From: Lepisosteus oculatus
Taxonomy: Eukaryota > Chordata > Actinopteri > Semionotiformes > Lepisosteidae
Direction of reading: 5' to 3'
Assembly (NCBI RefSeq): GCF_040954835.1
Contig: NC_090699.1
Coordinates: 14,439,817-14,503,816 of the forward strand
DNA: 64,000 nt
The notes below the pieces were generated by a model that saw nothing but the letters and a program-made list of their open reading frames with translations, was not told where the DNA came from and searched no databases. Both the position numbers and the translations under genes were made by a program. Shown here piece after piece: positions 12,201 to 44,939 of the stretch (positions are counted from its first letter, which is position 1; every line of letters begins with the position of its first letter).

Positions 12201-15200
12201 AGACTGGAGGCTCACTATTGCACTGCGGTGTGGCTCAGACTGGAGACTCACTACCGCACTGCGGTGTGGCTCAGACTGGAGGCTCACTACCGCACTGCGG
12301 TGTGGCTCAGACTGGAGGCTCACTACCGCACTGCGGTGTGGCTCAGACTGGAGGCTCACTACCGCACTGCGGTGTGGCTCAGACTGGAGGCTCACTACCG
12401 CACTGCGGTGTGGCTCAGACTGGAGACTCACTACCGCACTGCGGTGTGGCTCAGACTGGAGACTCACTACCGCACTGCGGTGTGGCTCAGACTGGAGACT
12501 CACTATCACACTGTGGTGTGGCTCAGACTGGAGGCTCACTACTGCACTGCGGTGTGGCTCAGACTGGGGGCTCACTATCGCACTGTGGTGTGGCTCAGAC
12601 TGGAGACTCAGACTGGAGACTCACTACCGCACTGCGGTGTGGCTCAGACTGGGGGCTCACTACCGCACTGCGGTGTGGCTCAGACTGGGGGCTCAGACTG
12701 GAGGCTCACTACCGCACTGCAGTTTGGTTCACTGTTTAGGTTGTACTGTACTGTCAAGCAGTGAACAAGCAGAGACTCACAGAGGAATCGATGTTCTCCA
12801 GTATCTCCTCGATGCAGCCATGCTGTCTGATCAGGTCAATGGCTCTCTTGGGGCCGATCCCTTTGATGGTACCACAGTAATCACAGCCCAGGAGAATACA
12901 CAAGTCTACAAACTGAGACAGAGAGAGGGGTTAATACACACACACACTGACTGGACACTCCAGTACATTAACACTGCACTGAGAGAGAGGGGTTAATACA
13001 GACACACTGACTGACTGGACACTCCAGTACATTAACACTGCACTGAGAGAGAGGGGTTCATACAGACACACTGACTGACTGGACACTCCAGTACATTAAC
13101 ACCGCACTGAGAGAGAGGGGTTCATACAGGCACACTGACTGACTGGACACTCCAGTACATTAACACTGCACTGAGAGAGAGGGGTTCATACAGACACACT
13201 GACTGACTGGACACTCCAGTCCATTAACACTGCACTGAGAGAGAGGGGTTCATACAGACACACTGACTGGACACTCCAGTACATTAACACTGCACTGAGA
13301 GAGGGGTTCATACAGACACACTGACTGGACACTCCAGTACATTAACACTGCACTGAGAGAGGGGTTCATACAGACACACTGACTGGACACTCCAGTACAT
13401 TCACACTGCACTGAGAGAGAGGGGTTAGTACACACACACTGACTGACTGGAAATGAACACTGAGTGTACCTGTTCATGTGTCAGTCCCATGTCTTGTAAA
13501 ACTCTATTAAAATGAAATTCCTGAATCGGCAGTTTCCTAGGGACAGAGGAGTTAAAGATACACACAGTGACTGACCAGTATAAGACAGATCATTAGAAAC
13601 AACTGTGCTGCAGAGGGTGTGTTGTACACAGAGTACAGCAGGTGCATCAGTACTTGGCTTCACTGGCGGTCAGATGTCGCAGCAGCACTGTTGTTCCGAA
13701 GGTCAGCCCATCCATATCCTCAGTTGCTGTGGCATAAACTTTCCCTGCTTTTACGAGGGCTGCACAGCTCGCCTCTGCCTCACAGGTGGCCTGGGAGAGA
13801 GAGAGGGGTTACATTAACACTGCACTGAGAGAGAGGGGTTCATACAGACACACTGACTGACTGGACACTCCAGTACATTGACACTGCACTGAGAGAGAGG
13901 GGTTCATACAGACACACTGACTGACTGGACACTCCAGTACATTAACACTGCACCGAGAGAGAGGGGTTCATACAGACACACTGACTGACTGGACACTCCA
14001 GTACATTAACACTGCACTGAGAGAGAGGGGTTCATACAGACACACTGACTGACTGGACACTCCAGTACGTTAACACTGCACCGAGAGAAAGACAGACACT
14101 GGTTATAGACATCACCTCGATATAAGGCACTCCCATCAGTGACAGCAGTTTCTTGCACTCTTCGTTGTGTTGGGGGGTGACTTTCACCAGTCGTTTGTTG
14201 AACTTTTCGATGTTCTCCTGCTCCCCTGACATTAAGCAACACAAAATAATGTCACAGCATAGCACTCACTGTATATGAACACTGACACTGTGCGTGACCC
14301 CTGTGCTGTATCCATTTGCCCCATATTACACACTGTGAACTCACAATCATCCACACAAGGGCAGTGTGTTGTGTTGTTGCTCCGCCCTCCCCCCCACAAA
14401 GCCAGTGTTGTGGCTCCGCCCCCCTCCCCACAATGCCCCTCGATGTGATCCCGGCCCCTCCCCACAATGCCCCTCGATGTGACCCCGTCACCCTCCCCAC
14501 AATGCCCCTGTGCTGAAGTCAGTCACCTGCTTCCTGTGCCTTTGCCAGCTGCTTCTCCGCCTCGGCCCGTCTCTCTCCTCGCTTCGCCAGCTGCCGGCAA
14601 AGAACAGCGCCCGGTCAGGCAGCGTCGCCACAAAAGGCGTGCACCGGTGCACCCCGCTGTTTCGGGGAGCCCAGTCGGACTTGAGCGCTCTCTACCCCAG
14701 CACCCCCAACAGCCAGACTGTCCTGCAACACAGCCCTTCCCTTCCTCCTCCTGTCAGGAGCCCTGAGCGGGGAGCCAACGAGGGACAGGGGGACAGCGCG
14801 GGGGACAGCGCAGCCGCAGTAGCGGTACGCGTTGCGGGGCGACGAACCGCTTCCGTTTCCCAGAGGAGAGGAAACGGTCGCGCTTGAGCGCCACAGACAG
14901 AGCTCAACGAGCTGCAGACAGAATCATGTTTCTGCACCATCCTTGCCTGCAGACGGAAAAGACAGTGAGGACAGACTGTCTCAACTGCTCCACATTGCCC
15001 CTCGACCCTTCTGCCCCACACCGCGACCCCAGTGCCCCCTGACCCCTCTGTTCTGTGACCCCTCTGCCCCTCACCACGACTCCAGTGCCCCTGACCCCAC
15101 TGCGACCCCTCTGTCCTGCAGGTCAAGGGATCATCAGACAGACATGCTTGTGGAGCAGAGTCCAGAGTTGTCCATACCCACTCAGGACACAGACTGAATC

Positions 15201-16817
15201 TGAATCTCAGAACAGGGACAATCCCGAGCTACACCAGCGGGTCGGGGGAGTGAGTCCTCTGTCTCATTCTTATTGCGAGAGCAAAACAGACAGGCTGCGA
15301 CGACCTCTGACCTCTCCAGATTTCAGCTCTGGTGGTTTGCCATCAAACACATAGACAGGCTTGATCCCATTTTCCAACATCCGGATAGTTCTGTAGAACA
15401 TTCCCATCAGGTGACTGACGGGAACAGAGAGAGGGGTGAATACAGACACACTGACTGGACACTCCAGTACATTAACAGGTAGGCAGTGAGACAGGTTTTT
15501 TACCTGGTGGTCTCTCCTTCCTCGTTGTGCAGCACGTTGCCGTCCAGTCTCACAGCTATCAGGAACTGGTAGATACTCATGGATGCGTCGATGGCGATCT
15601 TACGGCCTATCGGGTTGGATCGTGAAACAGTGATGCACAGAGACACCGACATGAAAGATAATTCCAATTCAATTCAAGCTTCTTTTTTGGCATGACAAAT
15701 GAGTAAGATGAGTGTTACCAAAGCAAATCAAATATAATTAACATAAAACAATCTACCGACATTTACAATAAAGACACATCATAAGATATTTTCATATAAA
15801 CATATGGAGCATTACTGGGAGACAGACTCACTGTTCCTCAGGCTGTGACATGAGATCACATACTGGGCTGCCAGTTCAACTGAGTTCCCTCCTCCCTCTC
15901 CCAGTAGGATTGGGACCTGTTGTGATTCTGGCAGGTGTGGGAACTCTGGGATTAGATTTCTGAATTTTGGGAAGAATGTTTCTCTAATCCCAGAGTATCT
16001 GTCACAGTGCAGTAGGAAGTGCACCTCTGTCTCTATTTCTCCCCGCTGGCAGTGGGAGCACAGCCTGTCCTCTCTGGGCAGCCAGGTCTGCCTGTGTCCA
16101 GGCTGTGGTCACTGAGCCTGTCCTCTCTGGTCAGCCAGGTCTGTCCTCTCTGGGCAGCCAGGTCTGCCTGTGTCCAGGCTGTGGTCACTGAGGCTGTCCT
16201 CTCTGAACAGACAGGTCTGTCCTCTCTGGGCAGCAAGGTCTGCCTGTGTCCAGGCTGTGGTCACTGAGGCTGTCCTCTCTGGACAGTCAGGTCTGTCTGT
16301 ATCCAGGCTGTGGTCACTGAGCCTGTCCTCTCTGGACAGCCAGGTCTGTCTGTGTCCAGGCTGTGGTCACTGAGGCTGTCCTCTGAACAGTCAGGTCTGT
16401 CCTCTCTGGACAGTCAGGTCTGTCTGTGTCCAGGCTGTGGTCACTGAGGCTGTCCTCTCTGGACAGTCAGGTCTGCCTGTGTCGCCCAGTTTCTGTGGCC
16501 AGGCTGTGCTCACTGAGCCTGTACTTCATCAGGGTCTGGTTCGTTTTGCTGTTATTTATCTTGGTTAGATATTCGGCTAGTGCTTAAGGTTCTCACAACA
16601 TGCTCACAACGTTAGACAACAAGCCCCCCCTCCCCTCACGCCACTCGGGGCACTTCAGCTCCCGGGGGTATTTCACAGCGGGGGGCACAGCGCACCCCTC
16701 TCACCACAGCCCGGGAGACGGCAGGCGGTCAGTACCGAAGTAGTTCTTCATGTCGTTCTCCTTGATGGCGCCGGGCGCCTGGTCCGCGATCAGCTTGGCC
16801 AGCCCGTGGATTCCCAT
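234..16817 (-). CDS. fen1: Flap endonuclease 1, complete, 11 coding exons
   Basis: FEN1 is a structure-specific nuclease that removes 5' flaps in Okazaki fragment maturation and long-patch base excision repair, bound to PCNA. Coding exons in transcription order: 16817-16736, 15606-15504, 15414-15312, 14590-14527, 14225-14116, 13790-13654, 13536-13470, 12912-12781, 9782-9631, 8562-8448, 311-234. They sum to 1,143 nt, giving 380 aa plus stop, exactly the usual family length. All introns are GT/AG and the phases join cleanly. Visible metal ligands are Asp34 (IAIDAS), Asp86 (VFDGKPP), Glu158/Glu160 (CEAEAS), Asp179/Asp181 (TEDMDG) and Asp233 (GCDYCG). The PCNA-binding PIP box is at residues 337-344 (QGRLDSFF), followed by a Lys-rich tail (KKKQKT, KFKKAK). 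The start is the conserved [10 protein letters not shown]; an acceptor AG lies just upstream, with the exon beginning at 16843, implying a separate 5' noncoding exon. The coding sequence is only 7% of the gene; introns 8, 9 and 10 are minisatellites. Human FEN1, by contrast, has an uninterrupted coding exon. Confidence 0.95.
340..8440. repeat. Giant 45-bp-type minisatellite filling fen1 intron 10
   Basis: About 180 tandem units of roughly 40-54 bp. Each has a conserved core (plus strand: gccgtggcgtagggacagg, or the variant gtggtgtggggacagg) followed by a variable purine run of GA/GGA. The plus strand is almost pure purine apart from the core, so the fen1 pre-mRNA is C/T-rich. A higher-order structure is visible: a block of about 3,079 bp (about 522-3600) is repeated next door (about 3601-6680), and a third copy shortened by about 1.29 kb follows (about 6680-8440; positions 6255 and 8045 match at an offset of 1,790). 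Very long open frames occur on both strands because the unit lacks stop trinucleotides. I regard them as non-coding. Confidence 0.95.
8640..9606. repeat. 29-bp minisatellite in fen1 intron 9
   Basis: Roughly 33 tandem units of 29 bp with the core cgccagctcgccggtccgtc and a variable segment (agtccggta, agcgcggta, agtcctgta). It is GC-rich and CpG-dense. It lies between fen1 exon 10 (ends at 8562) and exon 9 (begins at 9631) and takes up most of that 1.07-kb intron. The first third is irregular, with partial units. Confidence 0.95.
9985..12725. repeat. 36-bp minisatellite in fen1 intron 8
   Basis: About 70 units of 36 bp: a constant part (gcactgcggtgtggctcaga) then ctggaggctcacta with a variable dinucleotide (cc, tt, gc). 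Scattered units carry an extra 12-bp duplication (ctcagactggag), giving 48-bp forms. The array fills the intron between fen1 exon 9 (up to 9782) and exon 8 (from 12781), leaving about 200 bp of unique flank at the donor-proximal end of exon 9 and about 55 bp next to exon 8. Confidence 0.95.
12922..13465 (-). repeat. 60/64-bp splice-acceptor minisatellite, fen1 intron 7
   Basis: About nine units of the dispersed 60/64-bp family. The C-rich strand is the fen1 sense strand (minus). Each sense unit ends with a pyrimidine tract and AG, and the last unit runs directly into the acceptor of exon 8 (exon begins at 12912). Nothing else occupies this 557-nt intron. Confidence 0.9.
13795..14095 (-). repeat. 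60/64-bp splice-acceptor minisatellite, fen1 intron 5
   Basis: About five units of the same family in the same sense orientation, filling the 325-nt intron between exon 5 (ends at 14116) and exon 6 (begins at 13790). The acceptor of exon 6 is formed by the C/T tract of the terminal unit. Confidence 0.9.
14226..14526 (-). other. fen1 intron 4
   Basis: A 301-nt intron. About 14380-14515 holds three imperfect copies of a C-rich segment ending in cacaatgcccct. No other feature seen. Confidence 0.6.
14591..15311 (-). other. fen1 intron 3, mostly unique sequence
   Basis: A 721-nt intron of GC-rich, mostly unique sequence. An imperfect C-rich simple repeat (variants of ccctctgcccc) lies at about 14995-15120. 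The overlapping short reading frames have no recognisable domains. Confidence 0.5.
15415..15503 (-). repeat. Single-copy unit of the 60/64-bp family forming fen1 intron 2
   Basis: This 89-nt intron consists of a short donor end plus one copy of the dispersed unit in sense orientation (plus-strand match about 15425-15478). The acceptor, gttcccgtcag, is the modified end of that unit. It is the only place in the window where the unit occurs once rather than in an array. Confidence 0.8.
15640..16520 (-). mobile_element. Non-LTR retrotransposon ORF2 C-terminal remnant with internal tandem expansion
   Basis: The minus strand at about 15812-16060 encodes a reverse-transcriptase C-terminal zinc-finger region. 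A CxxC (RLCSHCQ) is followed by a HxxxxC (HFLLHC) and an IRETFFPKF-like tail, a pattern typical of fish LINEs. Upstream in element orientation (16080-16480), a segment of about 50 bp coding for variants of the residues before the finger is tandemly repeated about seven times. The element lies in fen1 intron 1. A second copy is at 20855-21470. Confidence 0.7.
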
Positions 16818-17009
16818 GGCGACGGCCGCGGCTCCCTGGGACCCTGGGGGGCGAAACCAACGAGCCCGTCAGCCCCGTCGCGCGCCGCACGCCACAGCCC
16901 GGCGGCCCGCGGATCTCACTGGGGCCCGTCGCCAGGCTGCGCCCTGCGTCGTCGCAGACTGCAGCTGCGTGGGTGGGCCAGACGAACCCCTCGCTGGTGT
17001 TTCCCCCCC

Positions 17010-19480: not shown

Positions 19481-19680
19481 CGTCTTTAAAAAAAAAAATT
19501 GAATGTAGTTTTCCTTTATGAGTGATTAAGCCGCGTGTACAACTTCTCGTGACCTGTCTGTGTATCCAAGTTGGATATTTGTTGGTAAGGGACTGTGTGG
19601 AGTCTGTATGGTCTTCCTGAGTCCACACAGGGTAATTGGTGTCTCTCAATCGTCTCTCCCAAATGTGTTTGGGGTCCGGT

Positions 19681-20440
19681 CAGTGTGTCTGCAGCAGGGC
19701 TGTCCAGTCCTGGTCCTGGAGGGGTCAGTCAGTGTGTCTGCAGCAGGGCTGTCCAGTCCTGGTCCTGGAGGGGTCAGTCAGTGTGTCTGAAGCAGGGCTG
19801 TCCAGTCCTGGTCCTGGAGGGGTCAGTCAGTGTGTCTGCAGCAGGGCTGTCCAGTCCTGGTCCTGGAGGGGTCAGTCAGTGTGTCTGCAGCAGGGCTGTC
19901 CAGTCCTGGTCCTGGAGGGGTCAGTCAGTGTGTCTGCAGCAGGGCTGTCCAGTCCTGGTCCTGGAGGGGTCAGTCAGTGTGTCTGCAGCAGGGCTGTCCA
20001 GTCCTGGTCCTGGAGGGGTCAGTCAGTGTGTCTGCAGCGGGGCTGTCCAGTCCTGGTCCTGGAGGGGTCAGTCAGTGTGTCTGCAGCGGGGCTGTCCAGT
20101 CCTGGTCCTGGAGGGGTCAGTCAGTGTGTCTGCAGCGGGGCTGTCCAGTCCTGGTCCTGGAGGGGTCAGTCAGTGTGTCTGCAGCGGGGCTGTCCAGTCC
20201 TGGTCCTGGAGGGGTCAGTCAGTGTGTCTGAACCCAGGCTGTCCAGTCCTGGTCCTGGAGGGGTCAGTCAGCGTGTCTGCAGCGGGGCTGTCCAGTCCTG
20301 GTCCTGGAGGGGTCAGTCAGTGTGTCTGCAGCAGGGCTGTCCAGTCCTGGTCCTGGAGGGGTCAGTCAGTGTGTCTGCAGCGGGGCTGTCCAGTCCTGGT
20401 CCTGGAGGGGTCAGTCAGTGTGTCTGCAGCAACATGGTTT
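19681..20440. repeat. 49-bp minisatellite in the tm9sf1 5' region
   Basis: About 15.5 nearly identical 49-bp units (period checked: core at 19681 and 19730). The core is gctgtccagtcctggtcctg followed by gaggggtcagtcagtgtgtc. Variation is limited to gcagcaggg, gcagcgggg and rarer forms. It probably lies in the first, noncoding intron of tm9sf1. Confidence 0.95.
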
Positions 20441-20642: not shown

Positions 20643-20807
20643 GGAACAAGTAATAGGTTTATTCCATGCTGAAAAAAAGAAGAAAGAGAACACAACGTTT
20701 CGGCCGTGGAGCCTTCTTCAGCTCACACCTGAAGAAGGCTCCACGGCCGAAACGTTGTGTTCTCTTTCTTCTTTTTTTTAGCATGGAATAAACCTGTTAC
20801 TTGTTCC
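20643..20807. repeat. Near-perfect palindrome, 79-bp arms, 7-nt loop
   Basis: Left arm 20643-20721, loop 20722-20728 (ctcacac), right arm 20729-20807. I count about two mismatches between the arms. The arm carries the element-like motif gaaggctccacggccgaaac and a tail gcatggaataaacc. Degraded relatives without the perfect palindrome occur at about 22036-22180 and 45826-45890, so it belongs to a dispersed family, here present as a head-to-head pair. Confidence 0.9.
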
Positions 20808-20854
20808 TTTGCAGCCTATGCATGCTGACGCAGCTACCCATCTGAAATATTATT

Positions 20855-21470
20855 AGTAGGCTGACTCTCTGTTCCTCAGGCTGTGACAGGAGATCACGTG
20901 CTGGGCAGCAGCTCTGTTAAGTTTCTTCTCCCAGTAGGATTGAAGGCTGTTCTGGTTCTGGCAGGTGTGGGAATTCTGGGATTAGATGTGTTATTTTAGG
21001 GAGGAATATTTGGCTTATCTCACAGTGTTTCTCACAGTGCAGCAGAAAGGGGATCTCTGGCTCTGCTTTAACTTGATGGCAGTGAGAGCATAGCCTGTCC
21101 TCTCTGGACAGCAATGTCTGTCTGTGTCCAGGCTGTGGTCCCTTAGCCTGTCCTTTCTGGACAGCGATGTCTGTCTGTGTCCAGGCTGTGGTCACTGAGC
21201 CTGTCCTCTCTGGACAGTCAGGTCTGTCTGTGTCCAGGCTGTGGTCACTGAGCCTGTCCTCTCTGGACAGTCAGGTCTGTCTGTGTCCAGGCTGTGGTCA
21301 CTGAGCCTGTCCTCTCTGGATAGCAATGTCTGTCTGTGTCCAGGCTGTGGTCACTGAGCCTGTCCTCTCTGGATAGCAATGTCTGTCTGTGTCCAGGCTG
21401 TGGTCACTGAGCCTGTGCGCTCTGCCTGTGTCTGGTTTCTGTGTCCAGGCAGTGGTCACTGACGATGTCT
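20855..21470 (-). mobile_element. Second copy of the zinc-finger LINE remnant
   Basis: The minus strand at about 20917-21195 encodes the same C-terminal finger as the copy at 15.8 kb (RLCSHCHQ, then a change to PFLLHC where the other copy has HFLLHC) and the same tail ([10 protein letters not shown]). It also has its own tandem expansion of about 55 bp (21100-21420, about six units). It lies just before the tm9sf1 start exon. Confidence 0.7.
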
Positions 21471-21505
21471 ATAGTCACCCTTCTCTTCCTCTCACAGAGG
21501 CTGTC

Positions 21506-24500
21506 ATGATGATAAGACTGGGGTTGCGATTGGCTGGCGGGGGCCTGTGGGCTTGTCTGCTGAGCTGCTGGCTCCTCCCCTCAGGGGGCGGGGCAGCCAC
21601 CTACAAGCAGGGCGACCCCGTGACCCTGTATGTGAACAAGGTTGGCCCCTACCACAACCCCCAGGAGACCTACCATTACTACACCCTGCCAGTGTGCAGG
21701 CCCAAGGAGGTGAGTGAACTGTGAGTAAGGTGTACCGCAGGGGTTCCCAGCCCTGGTCCTGGTGACGCCCACACCTGCTGGTCTTTCTTCTGATCCTTCA
21801 GTGAACTAGTGAATCCAAGTTTCGGCGGCCAGTGAGTTGGTGGGCTTTGAGCTCTTAAGTCCCCCAAGACTGAAAACCAGTAAAGAGCTTCAGTTGATCC
21901 TATGTCTAGGCCAATTAAGAGCCCGATTGTGCAAAGTGAGAGCTCGTCTAGAACAGAATCTGGCAGGTGTGTGGAGCACCAGTGCACCTGGTGTAAAGGA
22001 AGAGCAGAGTGTGAGCAATATGTGCCAAAGGAAGGAAGCGCAACGTTTCGGCTGTGGAGCCTTCTCCACAGCTCTTCAGAAACTGAAATGTTGTGTTTCT
22101 TTTCTTCTCTTTTCAGCCTGGAATAAACCTTTACTTGTTCCTTTGCAGCCTGCGCATGCTGACGCAGCTCCCTAACTACTAGACATTTCATTACCAGCAG
22201 CTACTGCTGCAGGCTGTATCGTTGTGCTTTTGAGAAATCAACTTTGATTGATTGGTTACCGATGTGTGTAAAGTCTGAGCGCAGTGAATGTAGGAGCTGG
22301 TGGGAAGAAAGTGTGCTCGGTTGCTCTGTCCCGAGCGCGGCGTGTGAAATTTGAGTGCCGTGTGAGAAGGGTCCTGGCGGTCCGTGCGTCGCGTGCGCAG
22401 GCGTGAACAGTGCTCGGCCAGCTGCTGCAGTTCTACCGCTGGGCCTGGGGGGGGGGCGGCGAGAGGGGGCGCTGTTTCTCACTGGCCTGCACCTCTTCCA
22501 GTGCCTGGTTTTGCCTTGCAGGTGCGGCACAAGGCGCTCAGCCTGGGCGAGGTGCTGGACGGGGACAGGATGGCGGAGAGCCTGTACGAGATCCGCTTCC
22601 GGGAGAACGCCGAGCGCAAGGCGCTGTGCGAGCTCACGCTGACGGAGAAGGAGGTGCGCGGGCCGCTGGCGGGGTCCCCCTCGAGACCGTCTCCGTCTTT
22701 GAGCAGCTCTGTCGCCGCCTTTGTCTCGTGACAGGTCACGGAGGAGAGGAGTCCATTTCTCCCATCTCGCTCGTTAGCTCACTAGTCTCTAATTGAGCCA
22801 AGCTTTTCATCCAGCTGTTTCCTGAGAGGAGCCAAAGTATTGGCTTCAACAACAACATGAGACGGAGTCTTTATTGTCCCCCCCTGGGGCATATTTTGTT
22901 TTACAGCAGCGGACAATGTAAAGAAAACCCCAAAGCAAAACGTATATGTACATGGCTGGGCAGGTTGTTCCATGCTCCCACCACCCTTTGTGTAAAGTGC
23001 ACCCTGTTCTCCCTTGTAACTGTATTTCCCTGGCGTTTCCACTGGTCTCCTCTCTATTTCAGGTGGAGCAGCTGAAGGAGGCTGTGGAGGAGCTGTATTA
23101 TTTTGAGTTCGTTCTGGACGAGATCCCCATCTGGGGCTTTGTGGGGTACATGGAGGAGAGTGGCTTCCTGCCTCACAGCCACAAGGTGGGGCTAGAGAGC
23201 CGCTTCCCTGCACTCTGTAGAGCACTGCCCACAATCCACAGTGCACAGCTCATTGCCCACAGTGTGTTTGAGAGTGTCGGTTTGCATGCAAGAGTGTTGG
23301 TGTGCGTGCAAGTGTGAGTGCGAATGTGTGTGTGCATGCGAGAGTGTCTGCGTGTGGGAATGTGTGTGAGGGTTCGTGCGAGAGCATCGTGTGTCTGCGA
23401 GTGCGAGAGCATCGTGTGTCTGCGAGTGCGAGAGCATCGTGAGTGTGAGCGTATCATGTGCATGTGAGAGTGTCTGAATGTGTGCGAGAATATCGTATGC
23501 GTTCGAGTGTGTGTGTGTGTGCGAGAGTATCGTATGCGTTCGAGTGTGTGTGTGTGTGCGAGAGTATCGTATGCGTTCGAGTGTGTGTGTGTGTGCGAGA
23601 GTATCGTATGCGTTCGAGTGTGTGTGTGCGTGCGAGAGTATCGTATGCGTTCGAGTGTGTGTGTGCGCGCGAGAGTATCGTATGCGTTCGAGTGTGTGTG
23701 TGCGCGCGAGAGTATCGTATGCGTTCGAGTGTGTGTGTGTGCGCGAGAGTATCGTATGCGTTCGAGTGTGTGTGTGTGCGCGAGAGTATCGTATGCGTTC
23801 GAGTGTGTGTGTGCGCGCGAGAGTATCGTATGCGTTCGAGTGTGTGTGTGCGCGCGAGAGTATCGTATGCGTTCGAGTGTGTGTGTGTGCGCGAGAGTAT
23901 CGTATGCGTTCGAGTGTGTGTGTGTGCGCGAGAGTATCGTATGCGTTCGAGTGTGTGTGTGCGCGAGAGTATCGTATGCGTTCGAGTGTGTGTGTGTGCG
24001 CGAGAGTATCGTATGCGTTCGAGTGTGTGTGCGAGTGTGTGTGTGTGCGAGAGTATCGTATGCGTTCGAGTGTGTGTGTGCGTTCGGCAATACGTGGGAT
24101 ATTTTTCAGCACACTGGGACACTCATCAGGAATACTCCTCCCTCAGATGCCGCATGACAAAAGGGGCGTGCGGCAGTGTGAGTTGTGGTAACTGGGGTCC
24201 CCCTTTGTTCTCAGGTGGGGCTCTGGACGCACCTGGACTTCAACATCGAGTACAACGGCGACGCGGTCATCTTCGCCAACGTGTCGGTGAAGGACGTGAA
24301 GCCCGTGCCGCTGGACGGCACCGCGGCGGGGGGCCTGGCGGTCACCCACACCTACAGCGTGCGCTGGTTCGAGAGCCCCCTGCCTCATGGGCGGCGCAGC
24401 GAGCGCCTGCGCGACTACAGCTTCTTCCCCAAGACGCTGGAGATCCACTGGCTCTCCATCATCAACTCGCTGGTGCTGGTGGTGCTGCTGCTGGGCTTCG

Positions 24501-27500: not shown

Positions 27501-28043
27501 GTATGAACCCCTCTCTCTCAGTGCAGTGTTAATGTACTGGAGTGTCCAGTCAGTCAGTGTGTCTGTATGAACCCCTCTCTCTCAGTGCAGTGTTAATGTA
27601 CTGGAGTGTCCCGTCAGTGTGTCTGTATTAACCCCTGTCTCTCTCTCAGCGCTATCTCTGTGGAGCTGTACTACATCTTTGCCACAGTGTGGGGCCGGGA
27701 GCACTACACCCTGTACGGGATCCTGCTGGTGGTCTTCGCCATCCTGCTATCAGTGGGCGCCTGCATCTCGGTGGCGCTGACCTACTTCCTGCTGTCGGGC
27801 GAGGACCACCGCTGGTGGTGGCGCAGCGTGCTCAGCACTGGCTCCACCGGCATCTTCATCTTCCTCTACTCCCTCTTCTACTACCGCAACCGCTCCAGCA
27901 TGAGCGGGCTGGTCCAGAGTGTCGAGTTCTTCGGCTACTCCTTTCTCACCGCCCTCGTCTTCGCCCTCATGCTGGGCACGGTCTCTTTCTGGTCCTCCCT
28001 GGCCTTCATCCGCTACATCTACCGCAACCTCAAGATGGACTGA
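21506..28043 (+). CDS. tm9sf1: Transmembrane 9 superfamily member 1, complete, 8 coding exons
   Basis: TM9SF proteins (nonaspanins) are endomembrane proteins with a large lumenal N-terminal domain and nine C-terminal membrane spans; TM9SF1 has been linked to autophagy and Golgi/endosome sorting. Exons: 21506-21709, 22522-22653, 23063-23185, 24215-24543, 25086-25240, 26036-26221, 26620-26893, 27650-28043, summing to 1,797 nt or 598 aa (human about 606). I see an N-terminal signal peptide (about residues 1-30), TM9SF1-specific blocks ([50 protein letters not shown]), the first membrane span at about 232-258 and the C-terminal KMD, a KXD-type Golgi retention signal. The start is the first of two Met codons after an acceptor (AG at 21496-21497). 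Acceptors of exons 5 and 8 are supplied by a minisatellite. Exon 7's 5' end is duplicated upstream as a decoy. Confidence 0.95.
21730..22200. repeat. Interspersed repeat remnants in tm9sf1 intron 1
   Basis: About 21738-21775 resembles the common fish segment aggggttcccagccctggtc; the same ctggtcctgg core recurs in the 49-bp array. About 22036-22185 is a diverged relative of the palindromic element at 20.6 kb, sharing tggaataaacc, cttgttcctttgcagcctg and catgctgacgcagct. Confidence 0.6.
22795..23060. repeat. Interspersed repeat, family also at 42.1, 46.8 and 50.1 kb
   Basis: Shares segments with the other three copies: cagctgtttcctgagagg, tattggcttcaacaacaac, and a stretch on a Pro/Cys-rich line ending in ccctttgtgtaaag. 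Probably part of a non-LTR element. It occupies most of tm9sf1 intron 2. Confidence 0.5.
23290..24095. repeat. 35-bp GT/GC-rich minisatellite in tm9sf1 intron 3
   Basis: About 17 regular units (from about 23480) of a 34-36 bp repeat: gagagtatcgtatgcgttcg followed by agtgtgtgtgtgcgc. Irregular precursors lie at 23290-23480. Runs of alternating purine-pyrimidine (tgtgtgtgtgcgcgcg) are potential Z-DNA. Long Arg/Thr/His open frames on the minus strand are by-products. Confidence 0.95.
24560..25085 (+). repeat. 60/64-bp splice-acceptor minisatellite, tm9sf1 intron 4
   Basis: About nine units, sense orientation. The array starts about 20 nt after the donor (GT at 24544) and ends in tgaacccctctctctcag, whose AG (25084-25085) is the acceptor of exon 5. 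The intron is essentially nothing but the array. Confidence 0.95.
25265..25802. repeat. 45-bp minisatellite in tm9sf1 intron 5
   Basis: About 12 units of 45 bp, each with cacactgatctcatgctctg and ttcacactcattactc followed by a variable atcgtgcc or accgtgac. Being a multiple of three without stops, it gives long open frames on both strands that have no protein meaning. Confidence 0.95.
26450..26660 (+). repeat. Triplicated 3' splice site and start of tm9sf1 exon 7
   Basis: The segment beginning at cctgacctggagtgtggtca occurs at 26461, 26542 and 26630. The last is the real exon (begins at 26620). The middle copy has its own C-tract and AG (26530-26531) followed by the same first exon codons. 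Use of that decoy would read through about 19 codons to a TGA within the duplicated segment. The first copy lacks a good acceptor. Confidence 0.85.
26958..27649 (+). repeat. 60/64-bp splice-acceptor minisatellite, tm9sf1 intron 7
   Basis: About 11 units in sense orientation, starting about 64 nt after the donor (GT at 26894). The last unit is slightly altered (tgtattaacccctgtctctctctcag) and its AG (27648-27649) is the acceptor of exon 8. Confidence 0.95.
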
Positions 28044-33605: not shown

Positions 33606-36600
33606 ATGGACCCCCACTCCGACCCGCTGCCCAGCCCCGGCTCGGCCGCGCCCCCCTGCTCCCTCCCGGAGGCCCCCACGCCCCCCCTCTCCCTCTCGGA
33701 CCCGTCGCCCCCCGCCCCGCCCTCCTCCCTGTCCTCCACCGCGGAGGGCGTGGTGCTGGCCCTGGGCCGGCGCCGGCAGCGCCTCCTGCTGGCCCTGACC
33801 GCCGCGCCCAACCTCTTCCTGGCCTTCGTCCTGTCCTCCGACGCCCTGCTGACGCGGCCGCCCCCGCACCGCTGCGCGCCGGCCCCCGGCACGCGCGCGC
33901 CGCTCAACGCCACGCCCGCCCAGTGCCAGCAGGTCCAGCTGGTGAACGGGACCCCGGCCGGCACCGTGCCCTGCCAGGCGGGCTGGGTCTACAACAGCAC
34001 CGAGGGCCTGAAGCACAACATGGTCACCGAGGTACCGAGGGCCTGCCCTGGTCTGGGGGTGCTGCCTGTGGCACAGGGAGGGGGCGCTGTTTCTTACAGC
34101 ATTATTACTGTTACTGCTGATGGGGACTGCAGTTCCCCCGCTGAGCCTGAGCACAGGGAGGGGGCGCTGTTTCTTACAGCATTATTACTGTTACTGCTGA
34201 TGGGGACTGCAGTTCCCCTGCTGAGCCTGAGCACCGGGAGGGGGCGCTGTTTCTTACAGCATTATTACTGTTACTGCTGATGGGGACTGCAGTTCCCCCG
34301 CTTAGCCTGAGCACCGGGAGGGGGCGCTGTTTCTTACTCTATTATTACTGTTACTGGTGATGGGGACTGCAGTTCCCCCGCTGAGCTTTTGCACCGGGAG
34401 GGGGCGCTGTTTCTTACTCTATTATTACTGTTACTGCTTATGGGGACTGCAGTTCCCCCGCTGAGCCTGAGCACCGGGAGGGGGCGCTGTTTCTTACTCT
34501 ATTATTACTGTTACTGGTGATGGGGACTGCAGTTCCCCTGCTGAGCCTGTGCACAGGGAGGGGGCGCTGTTTCTTACCCTTATTTATTCTTGCTGTTGTT
34601 AATGCATGCTCCTCTTCCTATGCTATGCTTGTTGGCAGTGTGGGGACAATGTTATTTCTAATAGGTGAGCTCCTCAACCCTCCTGTGTCCCTCCACCCTC
34701 TCTCCACAGTGGGACCTAGTGTGTGACCAGTACTGGAAGGTGCCAGTGGAGGAGGTCTGTTTCATACTGGGCATCCTGACCGGATGTTTGATCCTGGGCT
34801 ACATTGCTGACAGGTAGAGAGAGGGGTTCATACAGACACACTGACTGACTGGACACTCCAGTACATTAACACTGCACTGAGAGAGAGGGGTTCATACAGA
34901 CACACTGACTGGACACTCCAGTACATTAACACTGCACTGAGAGAGAGGGGTTCATACAGACACACTGACTGGACACTATAGTACATTAACACTGCACTGA
35001 GAGAGAGGGGTTCATACAGACACACTGACTGACTGGACACTCCAGTACATTAACACTGCACTGAGAGAGAGGGGTTCATACAGACACACTGACTGGACAC
35101 TCCAGTACATTAACACTGCACTGAGAGAGAGGGGTTCATACAGACACACTGACTGGACACTCCAGTACATTAACACTGCACTGAGAGAGAGGGGTTCATA
35201 CAGACACACTGACTGACTGGACACTCCAGTACATTAACACTGCACTGAGAGAGAGGGGTTCATACAGACACACTGACTGACTGGACACTCCAGTACATTA
35301 ACACTGCACTGGGAGAGAGGGGTTCATACAGACACACTGACTGGACACTCCAGTACATTAACACTGCACTGAGAGAGAGGGGTTCATACAGACACACTGA
35401 CTGACTGGACACACCAGTACATTAACACTGCACTGAGAGAGAGGGGTTCATACAGACACACTGACTGACTGGACACTCCAGTACATTAACACTGCACTGA
35501 GAGAGAGGGGTTCATACAGACACACTGACTGACTGGACACACCAGTACATTAACACTGCACTGAGAGAGAGGGGTTCATACAGACACACTGACTGACTGG
35601 ACACTCCAGTACATTAACACTGCACTGGGAGAGAGGGGTTCATACAGACACACTGACTGGACACTCCAGTACATTAACACTGCACTGAGAGAGAGGGGTT
35701 CATACAGACACACTGACTGACTGGACACACCAGTACATTAACACTGCACTGAGAGAGAGGGGTTCATACAGACACACTGACTGACTGGACACTCCAGTAC
35801 ATTAACACTGCACTGAGAGAGAGGGGTTCATACAGACACACTGACTGACTGGACACACCAGTACATTAACACTGCACTGAGAGAGAGGGGTTCATACAGA
35901 CACACTGACTGACTGGACACTCCAGTACATTAACACTGCACTGAGAGAGAGGGGTTCATACAGACACACTGACTTCCTGTCTGTCTCCATCTCAGGTTTG
36001 GGCGGCTGAAGGCCTTCTTGTCCTCCTTGTCCTTGTCAGTGCTGTTCGGGCTGCTGGTGTGTCTCTCCCCCTCCCCTTCCATCTTCATCCTCACGCGCTT
36101 CTTCCTCGCCGCCGCCACGGCCGGAGTCTACCTCACTCTGTACATCACCCGTGAGTGACGGGGTCGGGGGGCAGAGGGCGGGGCGGGCAGAGGGACAGAC
36201 AGGGCTCCTCCGAGCTGACCGCCTCTGTGCTTGACCCACAGGTGTGGAGCTGTGCGACCCATCGCTGCGGCTGATGGTCACCATGGCAGCGGGCCTGGTG
36301 ATGGTTGCCGGGGAGTTCCTGCTGCTGGGCGTGGCTGTGGGCTGCCAGTCCTGGAGGGGCCTGCAGGGGGCGATCACGGCCCCGCTGGCTCTGTTCCTGA
36401 GCTACGGGTGAGAGTCGGGTTCGGGCTATGTGGGTTGTGTGAGATGGGCTGGGTGTGGGGATAGACCAGGCTGGGGTGTGTTGGGTTCGGCTGGGCTGGG
36501 TGTGGGGCTGGGCCGGGCTGTGGTGTGTTGTGTTCGGCTGGGCTTTGCTGGATGTGGGGCTGTGCCAGGCTGGGGTGTGTTGGGATCTGTGGGGCTGGGT

Positions 36601-39600
36601 GTGGGGGGCTGGACTGGGCTGGGGTGTGTTGGGTTCAGTTGAGGTGTGATGGGTTCTGTGAGGCTGGACTGGGCTGGGGTGTGTTGGGTTTAGCTGGGGT
36701 GTGTTGGGTTCTGTGGGGCTGGACTGGGCTGGGGTATATTGGGTTCGGCTGGGCTGGGCTGGGTGTGTGGTTGGGCTGGGCTGGGGTGTGTTGGGTTCGG
36801 ATGGACTGGGCTGGGGTGTGTTGGGTTCGGCTGGGCTGGGCTGGGTGTGGGGCTGGACGGGGCTGGACTGGACTGGGCTGGGGTGTGTTGGGTTCAGCTG
36901 GGCTGGGCCGGGGTGTGTAGGGTTTGGCTGGATGTGGGGCTGGGCCAGGCTGGGGTGTGTTGGGTTCTGTGGGGCTGGGTGTGGGGCTGGACTGGGCTTG
37001 GGTGTGTTGGGTTCAGCTGGGGTTTGTTGGGTTCGGCTGGGCTGGGCTGGACTAGGCTGGGGTGTGTTGGGTTCTGTGGCGATGGGTGTGGGGCTGGACT
37101 GGGTTGGGTTCTGTGGGGGTGGGTTGGGTATGGGGCTGGGCTGGGTTGTGGTGCGTTAGGATTGGCTGGACAGGAGTGGGTGTGGGGCTGGGCCAGTCAG
37201 TCGTCAGTCGGGGCCTCGGTCCTGTCTGGCAGGAAGTGATGTCACGGACATGCTAACCTGCGGCCTGTGTCAGCCTGCCAGGTGTGTTCCCCGAGTCGCC
37301 TCGCTGGCTCCTGCTCTCCAGCCCGGAGCAGACAGACCTGCACTCCTTCCGCGAGCAGAGGGAGAGGGAGAGAGAGGAGGACGGCTTCACAGGTGCGTGC
37401 GTTTGCATGTGCGCGTGTGCCCAGGTTGGCGAGGCAGTGTTGTGTGTTGTGTGTTGGCAGAGGAGTACTTATGTATTCTGGACTGTTGCTGTACATTCCT
37501 GTTGTGTGCTGTTGTGATTTCGTACTTCACCACAGTTGTAGCCTGTGGCTGTGCCTGATCTGTATTGTTAAAGTGCTACACAGTGACACTTGGTGTATTA
37601 CAGTGTTGTGCTGCTGTGTCGACAGAGCTGCTGTTGTAGCTCCCGTTGTGTAGAGTAGAGAGACTTGCGAAGCAGTGTTGGCCGTCCCCTGTGTGTAACT
37701 GTCCTGTGTGTTGACAGAGCTGGACTCGGTGAGCTTGTACAGGCCCCACTCTACTGCCTCCTGGCTGTCGCTCCCTGAACTGCTGCACTGCAGGAACATC
37801 TGGAAGAACCTTTGTGTGCTGGGTTTCACTTCGTGAGTATAACCTCTGTATGTCTGTATGAACCCCTCTCCCTCAGTGCAGTGTTAATGTACTGGAGTGT
37901 CCAGTCAGTCAGTGTGTCTGTATGAACCCCTCTCTCTCAGTGCAGTGTTAATGTACTGGAGTGTCCCGTCAGTCAGTGTGTCTGTATGAACCCCTCTCTC
38001 TCAGTGCAGTGTTAATGTACTGGAGTGTCTAGTCAGTCAGTGTGTCTGTATGAACCCCTCTCTCTCAGTGCAGTGTTAATGTACTGGAGTGTCCAGTCAG
38101 TGTGTCTGTATGAACCCCTCTCTCTCTCAGTGCAGTGTTAATGTACTGGAGTGTCCAGTCAGTGTGTCTGTATGAACCCCTCTCTCTCAGTGCAGTGTTA
38201 ATGTACTGGAGTGTCCAGTCAGTCAGTGTGTCTGTATGAACCCCCCTCTCCCAGTGCAGTGTTAATGTACTGGAGTGTCCAGTCAGTCAGTGTGTCTGTA
38301 TGAACCTCTCTCTCTCTGGCAGGTTCATATCTCATGGTATCCACCACTGCTACAGCTCGTTTCGGGGGGATGTCCGGGGGACCCAGACTGGGTTCTACTC
38401 CTCCTATCTCCTGTCGTGCAGCACGGGGGGCGTGGCCTGTGCTTGTCTCTGCGCCACTGTGGATCGCTGTGGTCGCCGTGGCATCCTGCTCCTTGCTATG
38501 ACGATGACGGGCCTTGCTTCCCTGATACTGCTGGGACTCATAGAGTGTGAGTCAGTGTCATCGTGACTCCTGCTCCCCCTTGTGGCCGAGTGCGTGTATG
38601 ACACAGTTGTTGCATGTTCATTCTTGCGTAGCCTCGTGCTGAGAATCGGTTCATTGCTGACTGACCTGGCAGGGAGGGTGCTGAAGGAGAGGGCATGCGG
38701 GCCTTTCTGCATCATTGAACGGGGACACTGCAATATCCCCTCCTCCCCTCAAAGTCCAGCTCTGAAGAGTAGAAATTGTTATCCAGCCTGATGCCCTAAA
38801 GTATGTAATAAGAATTAATAACTGCTTATATAGCGCTTTCTGGACACTCCACTCAAAGCTCTTTTTGGGTAATGGGGATCCCCTCCTCCAGCACCAGTGT
38901 GCAGCCCCACCTGGATGATGCTCCAGTCTTCTCACACACACCAGCTCTCAGTGGGGAGGAGAGCAGAGTGATGAAGACAGTTCAGAGAGGGGGGTTATTA
39001 GGAGGCCATGACTGGTAAAGGCCAGGGGGAAATTTGGCCAGGACACAGGGGTAACACCCCTACTCTCTTCGAGAAACACCCTGGGATTTTTAATGACCAC
39101 AGACATCTCATCCTAAGGATGGAGCCTTTTTACAGTACAGTGTCCCCGTCACTACACTAGGGCATTAGGATCCACACAGACTGCAGGGTGAGCACCCCCT
39201 GCTGGCCCCACTAACACCTTTTCCAACAGCAACCTTAGATTTTCCCAGGAGGCTCCCACTCAGGTACTGGCCAGGCTCACACCTGCTGAGCTCCAGTGGG
39301 CTGCCAGTGTGAGTTGCTGGGTGACATGCTTCTGGCTATGTGGCAGTGAAGTGTGGGCTCCTGTCACAGTCCAGGATTACAATGACACAAACACTCTGTG
39401 AAAGCCCTGCTCACAGATTTCTGTAAAAACATCTTGCACGCGCAGAGAAAAACTGCTAACAATGAGTGCAGGGAGCAATTAGGCCAATATCGACTGCTAA
39501 TAGATAAACAGAAGAGAGAAATAAAATACACAGTATTGGTTATCTACAGGCTACACCTTAAAAAAAGTTACCAGTCTTCCAACCACCACAAGGCCCTGCT

Positions 39601-41472
39601 GAGCCCAGAGCTGATCCAGCTGGTCCTGAAGCTCACCGACACCAACCAATCTCAGGAGAATCACAATCACAGCTGAAACAACACGAATCGCAGTCAACCC
39701 AATCACAGCACAACACAAACAGCATTACCTCGCACACTGGACACACACCTGCACAACACACACTGGACAGCACTGTCTCACCCACTGGGGGACACACAAG
39801 CACAACACAAACAGCACTACATTACCCACTGGGACACACACACGCACACAACACACACTGGACAGCATTATTTCTCACGCTGGGACACACAGACATGCAC
39901 AGAACAAACCAAGCCCACTGGGACACTGACAACACAAACTTGACACCACTACCTCGCGCGCGTGCACGGCACACACACCGGACAGGGCCGGCTCGCGCGC
40001 GTGCACGGCACACACACCGGACAGGGCCGGCTTGCGCGCGTGCACGGCACACACACCGGACAGGGCCGGCTTGCGCGCGTGCACGCCACACACACCGGAC
40101 AGGGCTGCCTGTGCCGGGCGAATGGGAGTCTTCCTGTTCTAAAGGCGCATCACCGACTAGGAGAGAAGGTCTCTAGTCCGAGGATTCCACAGCCGAGGAA
40201 ATGGGAATTTCCTGTAATGAAATTGGACACGGAGCTCTCCAGACCCAGCTGCTGACTAACTAGCCAGACTCTTGTCTCTGAGACGGATCAGAACCAGATC
40301 CTCTGAGGAGGAGGAGGGTGATGGTGCTTCTTCTTTTTTACGTCTGCCTTCTGTTTCCTTCCTGCTCTGTCCTTTTACCCCGATTTCTGGTGAAGGTCTG
40401 CTCTTTATTATGATTAGCCAGAGTAATTCACCAGAAAATTTCCTTTGATCGCCTGTCTCAGTACGCTTACAGCGATGGGAGCACCACGTGACCCTCATTG
40501 CTTTGGAACTTTGTGCCTCTTAACTCAAAATAGCAGCAATAATAATTTAGCTGTAAATGTCTTGTGGCTTTGGCGACGCTAATTTGCTGGCCGTGCCGAT
40601 AAAACTGGTTGAACTTGAGAAATGAGAAATTTAGTGTGACTGTATGGCTTAGGTGCCCCCTTGTGGTGGAGAGCATGTATTATACAAGATGTGTTGTTCC
40701 TTGCATTTGATTTGCAGTGCTGTTGGTTTGTCGAGCTTCTCTTTTCAGATGAATGTGTGTAAGGCCTGATCTTCTGCCCCTGCATTGATCCTCCTTCTCT
40801 CTCTTTCACAGACCTCAATGAGTGGGCGATCACCATCTTCTCTGTCCTGGGGCTCTTCTCCTCACAGGCTGCGGCCTCGCTCTGCGTCCTCTTCACAGCC
40901 GAGATTGTGCCCACCATCATCCGGTAGGACTGCCCTCTCCACCCCTCATTACAGTTACTGTACTGGAGTGTCCAGTCAGTGTGTCTGTATGAACCCCTCT
41001 CTCTCAGTGCAGTGTTAATGTACTGGAGTGTCCAGTCAGTCAGTGTGTCTGTATGAACCCCTCTCTCTCAGTGCAGTGTTAATGTACTGGAGTGTCCAGT
41101 CAGTGTGTCTGTATGAACCCCTCTCTCTCAGTGCAGTGTTAATGTACTGGAGTGTCCAGTCAGTCAGTGTGTCTGTATTGACCCCTCTCTCTCAGGGGCT
41201 GTGGTGTTGGTGTGATTCTGGCTCTGGGCTCAGTGGGCCGCCTCAGTGCCCCCATCATGGACCTGCACAACCACTACGGCTACTTCCTGCACCACGTGGT
41301 CTACTCCTCCCTCGCCCTGCTGTGCGTCCTGTCCATCCTGCTGCTGCCGGAGAGCAAGAGGAAGCCCCTGCCGGAGACCCTGCCGGACGGCGAGGCGTAC
41401 CGCCGCCCCCCGCTGGGCAGGAGGAGGAAGGACAACGTCCCCCTGCTGTCCACACCCAACCCCTCCATCTGA
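33606..41472 (+). CDS. slc22a17: SLC22A17-type organic-cation-transporter-like protein, complete, 9 coding exons
   Basis: SLC22A17 (BOCT1, lipocalin-2 receptor 24p3R) is an atypical SLC22 major-facilitator membrane protein. Exons: 33606-34031, 34710-34813, 35996-36150, 36242-36407, 37274-37392, 37718-37832, 38323-38546, 40812-40923, 41196-41472, summing to 1,698 nt or 565 aa (human about 520-538). I see a Pro/Ser-rich N-terminus (residues 5-45), an extracellular loop with NAT and NST glycosylation sites, WDLVC, the MFS signature DRFGR after span 2, [27 protein letters not shown], and a C-terminus ([23 protein letters not shown]) close to SLC22A17. SLC22A23 is the alternative; it shares GYFLHH and IHHC. 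Neighbourhood (tm9sf1, cardiac myosin) and the C-terminus favour slc22a17. The ATG is the first in the exon, directly before the Pro-rich segment. Confidence 0.88.
34060..34580. repeat. 80-bp minisatellite in slc22a17 intron 1
   Basis: About six and a half units of 80 bp: gatggggactgcagttcccc, ctgagcctgagcac, gggagggggcgctgtttctt, then attattactgttactgct. Period checked at 34119 and 34199. Each unit contains ttcttacag or ttcttactct, a weak acceptor-like sequence. Confidence 0.95.
34814..35975 (-). repeat. 60/64-bp minisatellite in reverse orientation, slc22a17 intron 2
   Basis: About 19 units, the largest array of this family here, with the C-rich strand on minus, opposite to the gene. It begins at the donor itself: the exon ends gctgacag and the intron opens gtagagagaggggttcatac, the family's unit edge with two or three changes. 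The acceptor (AG at 35994-35995) comes from about 20 nt of non-repeat sequence (ttcctgtctgtctccatctc). Confidence 0.95.
36420..37210. repeat. Degenerate G-rich minisatellite in slc22a17 intron 4
   Basis: Overlapping units built from ggctggactgggctggggtg and tgttgggttcggctgg, spaced 35-55 bp with no fixed period. G-rich on the sense strand. Fills nearly all of the 866-nt intron. Confidence 0.9.
37850..38322 (+). repeat. 60/64-bp splice-acceptor minisatellite, slc22a17 intron 6
   Basis: About eight units in sense orientation starting about 15 nt after the donor (GT at 37833). The terminal unit is modified (tgaacctctctctctctggc then ag) and its AG at 38321-38322 is the acceptor of exon 7. Confidence 0.95.
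38795..39325 (-). mobile_element. Interspersed element, inverted relative of 32.6-33.1 kb
   Basis: Reverse-complement copy of the element at 32605-33125: tatagcgctttctggacact, gtaatggggatcccctcctc, cgagaaacaccctgggattt. It lies in slc22a17 intron 7. The two copies face each other across about 5.7 kb of the gene. Confidence 0.75.
39700..40110. repeat. CA-rich stretch and 39-bp minisatellite in slc22a17 intron 7
   Basis: Imperfect cacacacactgg-type repeats (39700-39940) are followed by four near-identical 39-bp units at about 39955-40110 containing gcgcgcgtgcacggcacaca and ccggacagggccgg. Confidence 0.85.
40955..41195 (+). repeat. 60/64-bp splice-acceptor minisatellite, slc22a17 intron 8
   Basis: About four units in sense orientation. 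The terminal unit (tgtattgacccctctctctcag) supplies the acceptor AG (41194-41195) for the last coding exon. Confidence 0.95.
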
Positions 41473-42940: not shown

Positions 42941-42946
42941 AATAAA
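42941..42946 (+). terminator. slc22a17: slc22a17 poly(A) signal (AATAAA)
   Basis: A canonical aataaa about 1.47 kb after the stop codon at 41470-41472, in a locally AT-rich context. Confidence 0.55.
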
Positions 42947-42999
42947 ATCTGCTGAAAACAACCCCCTCCTGTCTGCTGTTTTTTATGTGTGATGGACTG

Positions 43000-43985: not shown

Positions 43986-43989
43986 TCCC

Positions 43990-44935
43990 CCCACCTCTGT
44001 TCATCTCTCTCAGTGCAGTGTTAATGTACTGGAGTGTCCAGTCAGTGTGTCTGTATGAACCCCTCTCTCTCAGTGCAGTGTTAATGTACTGGAGTGTCCA
44101 GTCAGTCAGTGTGTCTGTATGAACCCCTCTCTCTCAGTGCAGTGTTAATGTACTGGAGTGTCCAGTCAGTGTGTCTGTATGAACCCCTCTCTCTCAGTGC
44201 AGTGTTAATGTACAGGAGTGTCCAGTCAGTCAGTGTGTCTGTATGAACCCCTGTCTCTCAGTGCAGTGTTGATGTACTGGAGTGTCCAGTCAGTGTGTCT
44301 GTATGAACCCCTCTCTCTCAGTGCAGTGTTAATGTACTGGAGTGTCCAGTCAGTGTGTCTGTATGAACCCCTCTCTCTCAGTGCAGTGTTAATGTACTGG
44401 AGTGTCCAGTCAGTGTGTCTGTATGAACCCCTCTCTCTCAGTGCAGTGTTAATGTACTGGAGTGTCCAGTCAGTGTGTCTGTATGAACCCCTCTCTCTCA
44501 GTGCAGTGTTCATGTACTGGAGTGTCCAGTCAGACAGTGTGTCTGTATGAACCCCTCTCTCTCAGTGCAGTGTTAATGTACTGGAGTGTCCAGTCAGTCA
44601 GTGTGTCTGTATGAACCCCTCTCTCAGTGCAGTGTTAATGTACTGGAGTGTCCAGTCAGTCAGTGTGTCTGTATGAACCCCTCTCTCTCAGTGCAGTGTT
44701 AATGTACTGGAGTGTCCAGTCAGTCAGTGTGTCTGTATGAACCCCTCTCTCTCAGTGCAGTGTTAATGTACTGGAGTGTCCAGTCAGTCAGTGTGTCTGT
44801 ATGAACCCCTCTCTCTCAGTGCAGTGTTAATGTACTGGAGTGTCCAGTCAGTCAGTGTGTCTGTATGAACCCCTCTCTCTCAGTGCAGTGCTAATGTACT
44901 GGAGTGTCCAGTCAGTGTGTCTGTATGAACCCTTC
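43990..44935 (+). repeat. 60/64-bp minisatellite array outside any recognised gene
   Basis: About 15 units with the C-rich strand on plus. It ends in tgaacccttctcattgaccc followed by ag, a degraded unit edge. No recognisable exon follows, unlike the other arrays of this family. Confidence 0.95.
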
Positions 44936-44939
44936 TCAT

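Follow-up and report, generated by a model that had tools for sequence, protein, structure and literature searches.

How can one tandem repeat come to fill introns of unrelated genes and, in nearly all of them, end exactly where the next exon begins? The question is raised by a 64,000-nucleotide (nt) stretch of Lepisosteus oculatus contig NC_090699.1 (positions 14,439,817–14,503,816; 'the window' refers to this whole stretch). A minisatellite with the gene-sense unit TGCAGTGTTAATGTACTGGAGTGTCCAGTCAGTCAGTGTGTCTGTATGAACCCCTCTCTCTCAG (64 bp; 60 bp where one AGTC is absent) occurs here in eight introns of three unrelated neighboring genes, fen1, tm9sf1, and slc22a17, and in one intergenic stretch. 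In the explanation that we prefer, with a probability of roughly 60 per cent, a minisatellite bearing its own 3′ splice site (acceptor) spread among the introns of this region and replaced the bodies of existing introns, and its last unit came under selection.

One repeat family in the introns of three genes

Tandem Repeats Finder (TRF) delimits eight arrays that hold between 3.9 and 18.5 copies, some of which are also called as a 124-bp dimer. With its 64/60-bp units arranged head to tail, the family is a minisatellite in the usual sense (units of roughly 10–100 bp), and it makes up 86–98 per cent of each of the seven introns that hold more than one unit. Complete units are recovered by nhmmer with E-values of 1.9e-9 to 4.6e-16. 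Partial edge units give weaker matches (E-values up to 0.13), and of the shortened unit that ends fen1 intron 5 only a fragment was matched (E = 6.6). The arrays and their terminal units are as follows:

12913–13469 (TRF 12920–13451), minus strand: fen1 intron 7, 557 bp, eight units and a diverged 5′ edge unit
12913–12978, minus strand: terminal unit of fen1 intron 7, with branch candidate TTAAC and predicted acceptor
13791–14115 (TRF 13810–14088), minus strand: fen1 intron 5, 325 bp, four complete units
13791–13824, minus strand: terminal unit of fen1 intron 5, shortened by a deletion, with TTAAT 23 nt from the AG and no AG between
15415–15503, minus strand: fen1 intron 2, 89 bp, mostly one single unit (15415–15477)
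15415–15477, minus strand: unit of fen1 intron 2, with branch candidate TTCAC, a longer C/T tract, and predicted acceptor
24544–25085 (TRF 24563–25085), plus strand: tm9sf1 intron 4, 542 bp, array intron
25022–25085, plus strand: terminal unit of tm9sf1 intron 4, equal to the interior consensus (TGAAC), with predicted acceptor
26894–27649 (TRF 26957–27643), plus strand: tm9sf1 intron 7, 756 bp, array intron
27586–27649, plus strand: terminal unit of tm9sf1 intron 7, with branch candidate TTAAC, a C/T tract longer by 4 nt, and predicted acceptor
34814–35995 (TRF 34816–35974), gene on the plus strand, units on the minus strand: slc22a17 intron 2, 1182 bp, inverted array
37833–38322 (TRF 37851–38316), plus strand: slc22a17 intron 6, 490 bp, array intron
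38255–38322, plus strand: terminal unit of slc22a17 intron 6, with TGAAC, a lengthened C/T tract, and predicted acceptor
40924–41195 (TRF 40954–41195), plus strand: slc22a17 intron 8, 272 bp, array intron
41132–41195, plus strand: terminal unit of slc22a17 intron 8, with branch candidate TTGAC and predicted acceptor
44004–44937, plus strand: intergenic array between slc22a17 and a myosin heavy chain gene, with no known exon junction at its ends

Thirty-seven coding introns were placed by reading frame (nine in fen1, seven in tm9sf1, eight in slc22a17, and thirteen in the myosin gene). The family is present in 8 of the 24 introns of the first three genes, whereas neither TRF nor nhmmer detects it in the 13 myosin introns (P = 0.03). 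An earlier note on this DNA had described one such family in these introns and the intergenic stretch, a description with which TRF, nhmmer, and intron placement agree. Its further statement that orientation follows the host gene with one exception also holds (seven of the eight introns), and that regularity, taken alone, is weak evidence. Exact unit patterns had no matches in viral contigs or in prokaryote genomes, a result that is uninformative for vertebrates.

Array ends coincide with splice sites

In seven of the eight introns, the family sequence runs to the AG that precedes the next exon, so that the C/T tract and CAG of the terminal unit would themselves form the acceptor, as the earlier note had proposed. 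In the eighth, slc22a17 intron 2, the inverted array meets the other splice site: the C/T end of the unit, read as AGAGAGAGG, begins 2 nt inside the donor, directly after its GT, and the opposite edge of the array gives CTGAC 23 nt before a native acceptor. By comparison, 14 of the 16 other tandem arrays in coding introns end 92 nt or more from the acceptor (124 TRF rows were condensed by hand into the 28 stretches of this control list). The two exceptions are a (TAA)n tract at 18 nt from an acceptor and an 81-bp duplication that crosses one.

The C/T tracts at these acceptors are family sequence: ACCCCTCTCTCT scores 10–12 of 12 in all seven array acceptors and no more than 9 in 30 other introns. 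On an acceptor matrix built on the same 30 introns, the seven array acceptors score 8.6–12.9 and the interior consensus 7.3. The unit has no good donor: its best one, on either strand, scores 4.1 against a native median of 7.4, and 35 of the 37 native donors, from which the matrix was itself built, score at least 4.1.

Terminal units differ from interior units at the branch motif

TTAATG, which the earlier note had taken for a branch point, is an unlikely one because, within the unit, 53 nt and four AGs separate it from the acceptor; AGs between a branch point and an acceptor are expected to stop the scanning spliceosome early. Only in fen1 intron 5 does a deletion bring TTAATG within reach. 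The RNA of the unit folds, and a hairpin might hide AGs. A better branch candidate, as judged from the sequence, is the motif just before the C/T tract, which is TGAAC in 65 of the 66 interior units. The vertebrate branch consensus is yUnAy, with U preferred at the position where TGAAC has G.

The most useful new point of this analysis is that the terminal units differ here from the interior ones. A U at position −2 of the branch motif is found in five of the seven terminal units predicted to work as acceptors and in 1 of the 66 interior units (Fisher's exact test, which takes units as independent; P = 8e-6). Four of these five carry TTAAC (fen1 intron 7 and tm9sf1 intron 7), TTCAC (fen1 intron 2), or TTGAC (slc22a17 intron 8); the fifth is that of fen1 intron 5, in which the deletion also places TTAAT 23 nt from the AG. 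At the two array ends that do not serve as acceptors, TGAAC is kept and U is absent (0/2). The distance from branch motif to AG is 18–22 nt in five of the seven terminal units and 12–16 nt in all 66 interior units. When a terminal unit was drawn at random within each of six arrays (5′ edge units excluded), the observed values were rarely reached, whether for U (4/6, P = 0.0017), for a distance of at least 18 nt (4/6, P = 0.0004), or for either (5/6, P = 0.0002).

The difference lies mainly in one part of the unit. On the 5′ side of the branch motif, terminal units depart from the consensus at 2 of 281 sites and interior units at 23 of 3014; from the motif onward (the last ~17 nt), the counts are 7 of 118 and 8 of 1116, respectively (P = 2e-4). 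Insertions of 4–8 nt are present in five of the seven terminal units (the unit of fen1 intron 2 having been trimmed to its family part beforehand). This location of the difference speaks against the age of edge units as its only cause, and the variety of solutions (TTAAC twice, TTCAC, TTGAC, and a deletion) fits repeated repair. We infer that selection has acted on the terminal unit, either to improve it or to preserve it.

Arrays of different genes share one pool of units

Interior units differ by substitutions at 1.30 per cent of sites within arrays and 1.42 per cent between arrays (66 units, 8 arrays). When array labels were shuffled, an excess as large as this or larger arose in 20 per cent of permutations (P = 0.20). 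Since units from different arrays are about as similar as units from the same array, the arrays of different genes are drawn from a single recent pool, by either recent spread or continuing exchange between loci. The shared alternation of 64- and 60-bp units, considered as a sign of block transfer, gives no significant signal: 31 alternations occur, and shuffles give 32.4.

Existing introns were probably taken over rather than newly created

The earlier note had offered two readings, a mobile or copy-transferable unit that forms introns and selection that keeps only splice-compatible arrays. Its shared family, built-in 3′ splice site, sense orientation in seven of eight introns, and spread between loci (with between-array differences about equal to those within arrays) all stand. 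Its intron-forming part is unsupported. The stubs that remain on the donor side of the arrays are 2–63 nt long and unrelated to each other: among the 15 pairs of the six stubs compared, with ends set by eye (those of fen1 intron 7 and slc22a17 intron 2 being too short), the highest score, that of slc22a17 intron 6 against fen1 intron 5, was reached by 4 of 300 shuffles. No target duplications were found at the intron ends, where 7–10 of 24 positions match in register, splice consensus included. An introner, that is, an intron-forming element, copied whole would bring a shared donor end; hence, the unrelated stubs tell against it. Together with the lack of target duplications, they favor the takeover of existing introns, which we consider likelier than the creation of introns by the unit, and the selection option of the note fits better than an intron-forming unit.

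The events that we propose would be as follows. The unit would carry a 3′ splice-site module (a weak branch motif, a C/T tract, and CAG) and would have spread recently, at the DNA level, among the introns of this gene-dense region through ectopic conversion, template switching, or re-integration of repeat circles. Its arrays would have displaced the interior of existing introns as far as the splice signals. With an acceptor supplied by the unit itself, sense arrays could extend to the next exon, whereas most other minisatellites of the window stop ~100 nt or more before an exon. The last unit would then become the working acceptor, and selection would improve or keep it through a U at −2, a longer C/T tract, or both. 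The interior near-copies would compete poorly and define no false exons because their branch motif is weak and the unit has no good donor.

If the same holds genome-wide, such arrays would be natural test cases for how the spliceosome chooses one acceptor among many near-identical ones, because a single unit per array, the last, is expected to function and the bases that set it apart are known. They would also show how, in a vertebrate, selfish tandem DNA can come to rewrite intron 3′ ends.

Several observations weigh against this explanation. Phase 2 is found in six of the eight array introns and in 3 of the 16 remaining introns of fen1, tm9sf1, and slc22a17 (uncorrected P = 0.02), a bias that pre-existing introns would not have to show. 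One array is inverted and one is intergenic, which shows that spread is not tied to splicing. The interior consensus outscores 10 of the 30 native acceptors; interior copies are therefore credible, if second-rate, acceptors and not obviously dead. The acceptor of tm9sf1 intron 4 is an unmodified unit of the interior type, and slc22a17 intron 6 retains TGAAC and has a longer tract only, from which it follows that a repaired branch motif is not obligatory. A U at −2 is also seen in two of the eight 5′ edge units (fen1 introns 5 and 7, read by eye) and in one interior unit (fen1 intron 7), and the pattern may in part be an edge effect or reflect an older type of unit retained at edges. A yUnAy motif lies within reach in just 17 of the 30 other acceptors. 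Finally, the independent events are few (seven).

Alternative explanations and known systems

Among known systems, the closest in logic are the mirages of amphioxus, minisatellite-like duplications of intron–exon boundaries that reportedly leave splicing undisturbed (PMC3087553; PMC3902484). Like the family described here, they are tandem repeats in which the splice signals that close an intron are doubled; unlike it, they span the boundary, include exon sequence, and belong to single loci, whereas the unit here stops at the AG in seven acceptors and serves three genes. A comparable origin would have a tandem duplication over the 3′ splice junction of one gene create the unit, and unequal exchange and conversion among neighboring introns spread it; the terminal units would then be older and unhomogenized rather than repaired. 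Units at cluster boundaries do escape homogenization in amphioxus (PMC3087553), and a U-containing motif is retained in some edge units here. At 26456–26666, an 81-bp, ~2.5-copy duplication runs across the acceptor of tm9sf1 intron 6 into the next exon and doubles its C/T tract and CAG, which shows that mirage-like repeats also arise in this genome. Yet terminal units are as near to the consensus as interior ones on the 5′ side of the branch motif (2/281), no 12-mer of the unit occurs in any coding exon placed in the window, and the C/T tracts of the terminal units differ from the other acceptors in the window. We regard such an origin as unlikely, although it survives better than the other alternatives.

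A duplication over an intron–exon boundary gave rise to a new intron in the potato RdRp gene, as was shown by species comparison (PMC4974935). A branch site, a C/T tract, and a 3′ splice site came with that duplication, as they would with the unit here, but the case concerns one locus and one duplication.

Introners have been found in 5 per cent of the species searched and, among animals and land plants, in just two groups; vertebrates were without a pattern of intron gain in that survey (PMC9860276). The present family resembles them in that one sequence is shared by the introns of several unrelated genes (here, eight introns of three genes), and some introners carry a 3′ splice site alone (PMC9860276). 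Single units with a 3′ splice site might accordingly have been inserted into exons, where they made introns and later expanded, with the one-unit, 89-bp fen1 intron 2 as the least changed case.

The existence of this single-unit intron, the sequence common to introns of unrelated genes, and the excess of phase 2 speak for such insertions. Mammalian FEN1 is, in addition, not known to have introns in its coding sequence. In tm9sf1 intron 4, moreover, the donor and acceptor ends form a partial inverted repeat, with the highest score (9) of all 37 introns, in low-complexity purine/pyrimidine sequence; the scores of the other seven array introns (3–7) fall inside the range of 29 other introns (3–8). 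The array introns are not alike from end to end, the donor side included: as described above, they lack a common donor end and target duplications. Among known introner families, some have target duplications and some have terminal inverted repeats. In addition, one copy is inverted in an intron with a native acceptor and another is intergenic. Intron creation is possible for these arrays, and we judge the insertion scenario improbable, more so than a mirage-like origin.

A further reading is that of a vertebrate 'acceptor cassette': a tandem repeat that would move among introns, seize the 3′ splice site of each host intron, and then evolve a division of labor, with a branch point kept or regained in the exon-proximal unit and the interior copies left as weak decoys. 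In its boldest form, the cassette would also found new introns, for which the one-unit fen1 intron 2 would speak, and would then be a vertebrate family of the introner-like kind. We offer this as a speculative proposal, about as doubtful as the mirage-like origin.

Alternatively, a transposon or long interspersed nuclear element (LINE) could carry the minisatellite and land in introns by chance, while purifying selection purges the copies that break splicing. A different, 53-bp minisatellite of the window adjoins a LINE-like tail (as judged by eye), and a dispersed repeat that occurs at 33076 and, inverted, at 38840 contains a 12-mer of the unit, which may be due to chance. Neither target duplications nor common donor-side flanks were found, however (the flanks of the intergenic array were read by eye only), and the array ends coincide with splice signals, which makes this scenario very improbable. 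An assembly artefact, in which one array was copied into several gaps, would explain why arrays of different genes are near-identical but is hardly credible, given that the window contains no N, that length, unit order, and private variants differ among arrays, and that the junctions lie at splice sites with reading frames intact.

Other systems share single features with the family. Minisatellites occur in the GH introns of sea bream, and ~320 bp are common to intron 1 of MSTN-2 and intron 2 of osteocalcin (PMC3045353); intronic minisatellites and intron sequence common to genes are known from fish, and the accessible part of that report does not mention that the shared stretch supplies an acceptor. 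Splice signals also lie within tandem repeat units in polyubiquitin genes, where the dual-specific sites act as both donor and acceptor (PMC10809524), whereas the unit here is without a good donor. A sense bias of C/T-bearing intronic repeats has a precedent in Daphnia pulex, whose CT- and T-rich tandem repeats are favored on the sense strand of introns (PMC3152781); those repeats are simple, and a single acceptor family is not mentioned in the part of the source consulted. The TCAST elements of Tribolium, which form dispersed euchromatic satellite arrays, are likewise satellite-like and situated near genes, with no splice-signal role mentioned in the accessible text (PMC3411249). A paper on intron gain in humans mentions introners but, in its accessible part, not tandem repeats (PMC12124190). 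In our search of the open-access literature, we met with no vertebrate repeat family that provides several genes with acceptors. A literature search on FEN1 gene structure in other species likewise yielded no informative result.

Gene models and intron placement

The window contains fen1 on the minus strand, followed by tm9sf1, slc22a17, and the myosin heavy chain gene, all on the plus strand. With exons joined at junctions read by hand, residues 1–354 of FEN1 align without gaps to a solved flap endonuclease 1, and the junctions of introns 2, 6, and 8 of SLC22A17 are gap-free against the solved SLC22A17. Given the reading frame and these protein alignments, there is little freedom in the placement of junctions in the two genes. 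Pfam identifies EMP70 in the third protein, encoded by the gene that we take, from synteny, to be tm9sf1, and a search of the PDB with this protein was without a match. The product of the fourth gene has a Pfam myosin head, and this gene is presumably, again from synteny, of the cardiac type. The intron set covers coding introns within the annotated part of the window; introns of untranslated regions and a tenth fen1 intron, which enters an 8-kb array past that part, lie outside it. This array is purine-rich, with units of 45/47 bp, extends over 8.1 kb (323–8438), and starts right after the last fen1 donor (read by eye).

Related repeats in the window

Among the 12 minisatellite families compared with the unit, only one gives a convincing match:

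19671–20431, plus strand: 49-bp minisatellite between fen1 and tm9sf1, which has the exact 17-mer GTCAGTCAGTGTGTCTG in common with the 64-bp unit

The best of 200 shuffles reaches a match of 11. This 49-bp minisatellite, which is without the C/T tract and CAG of the unit, is a probable relative of it; an older repeat may have acquired the splice module or may have lost it. Two other families have 10- and 11-mers in common with the unit, which none of 200 shuffles reached, but these are simple sequence. Outside the arrays and the 49-bp relative, 12-mers of the unit occur in five places only, none of them in placed coding exons. The 12-mer in the dispersed repeat at 33076 and 38840, whose copies have opposite orientations, is TGGAGTGTCCAG and may be there by chance.

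The acceptor region of fen1 intron 6 (13537–13653, 117 bp) is weakly unit-like (TTTAACTCCTCTGTCCCTAG) and could be a decayed copy or a chance match. We do not claim it as an older copy, its z-score of 3.8 (reached by 1 of 300 shuffles) having been picked out among 37 introns scanned.

The 53-bp minisatellite family is present at 16062–16522 in fen1 intron 1, where it adjoins the LINE-like 3′ tail, and at 21092–21462, upstream of the exon with the tm9sf1 start codon. A short repeat resembling a miniature inverted-repeat transposable element was noticed by eye at 20690–20830, 22047–22170, and 45845–45900; its first two copies have aaacgttgtgttct...ggaataaacc in common.

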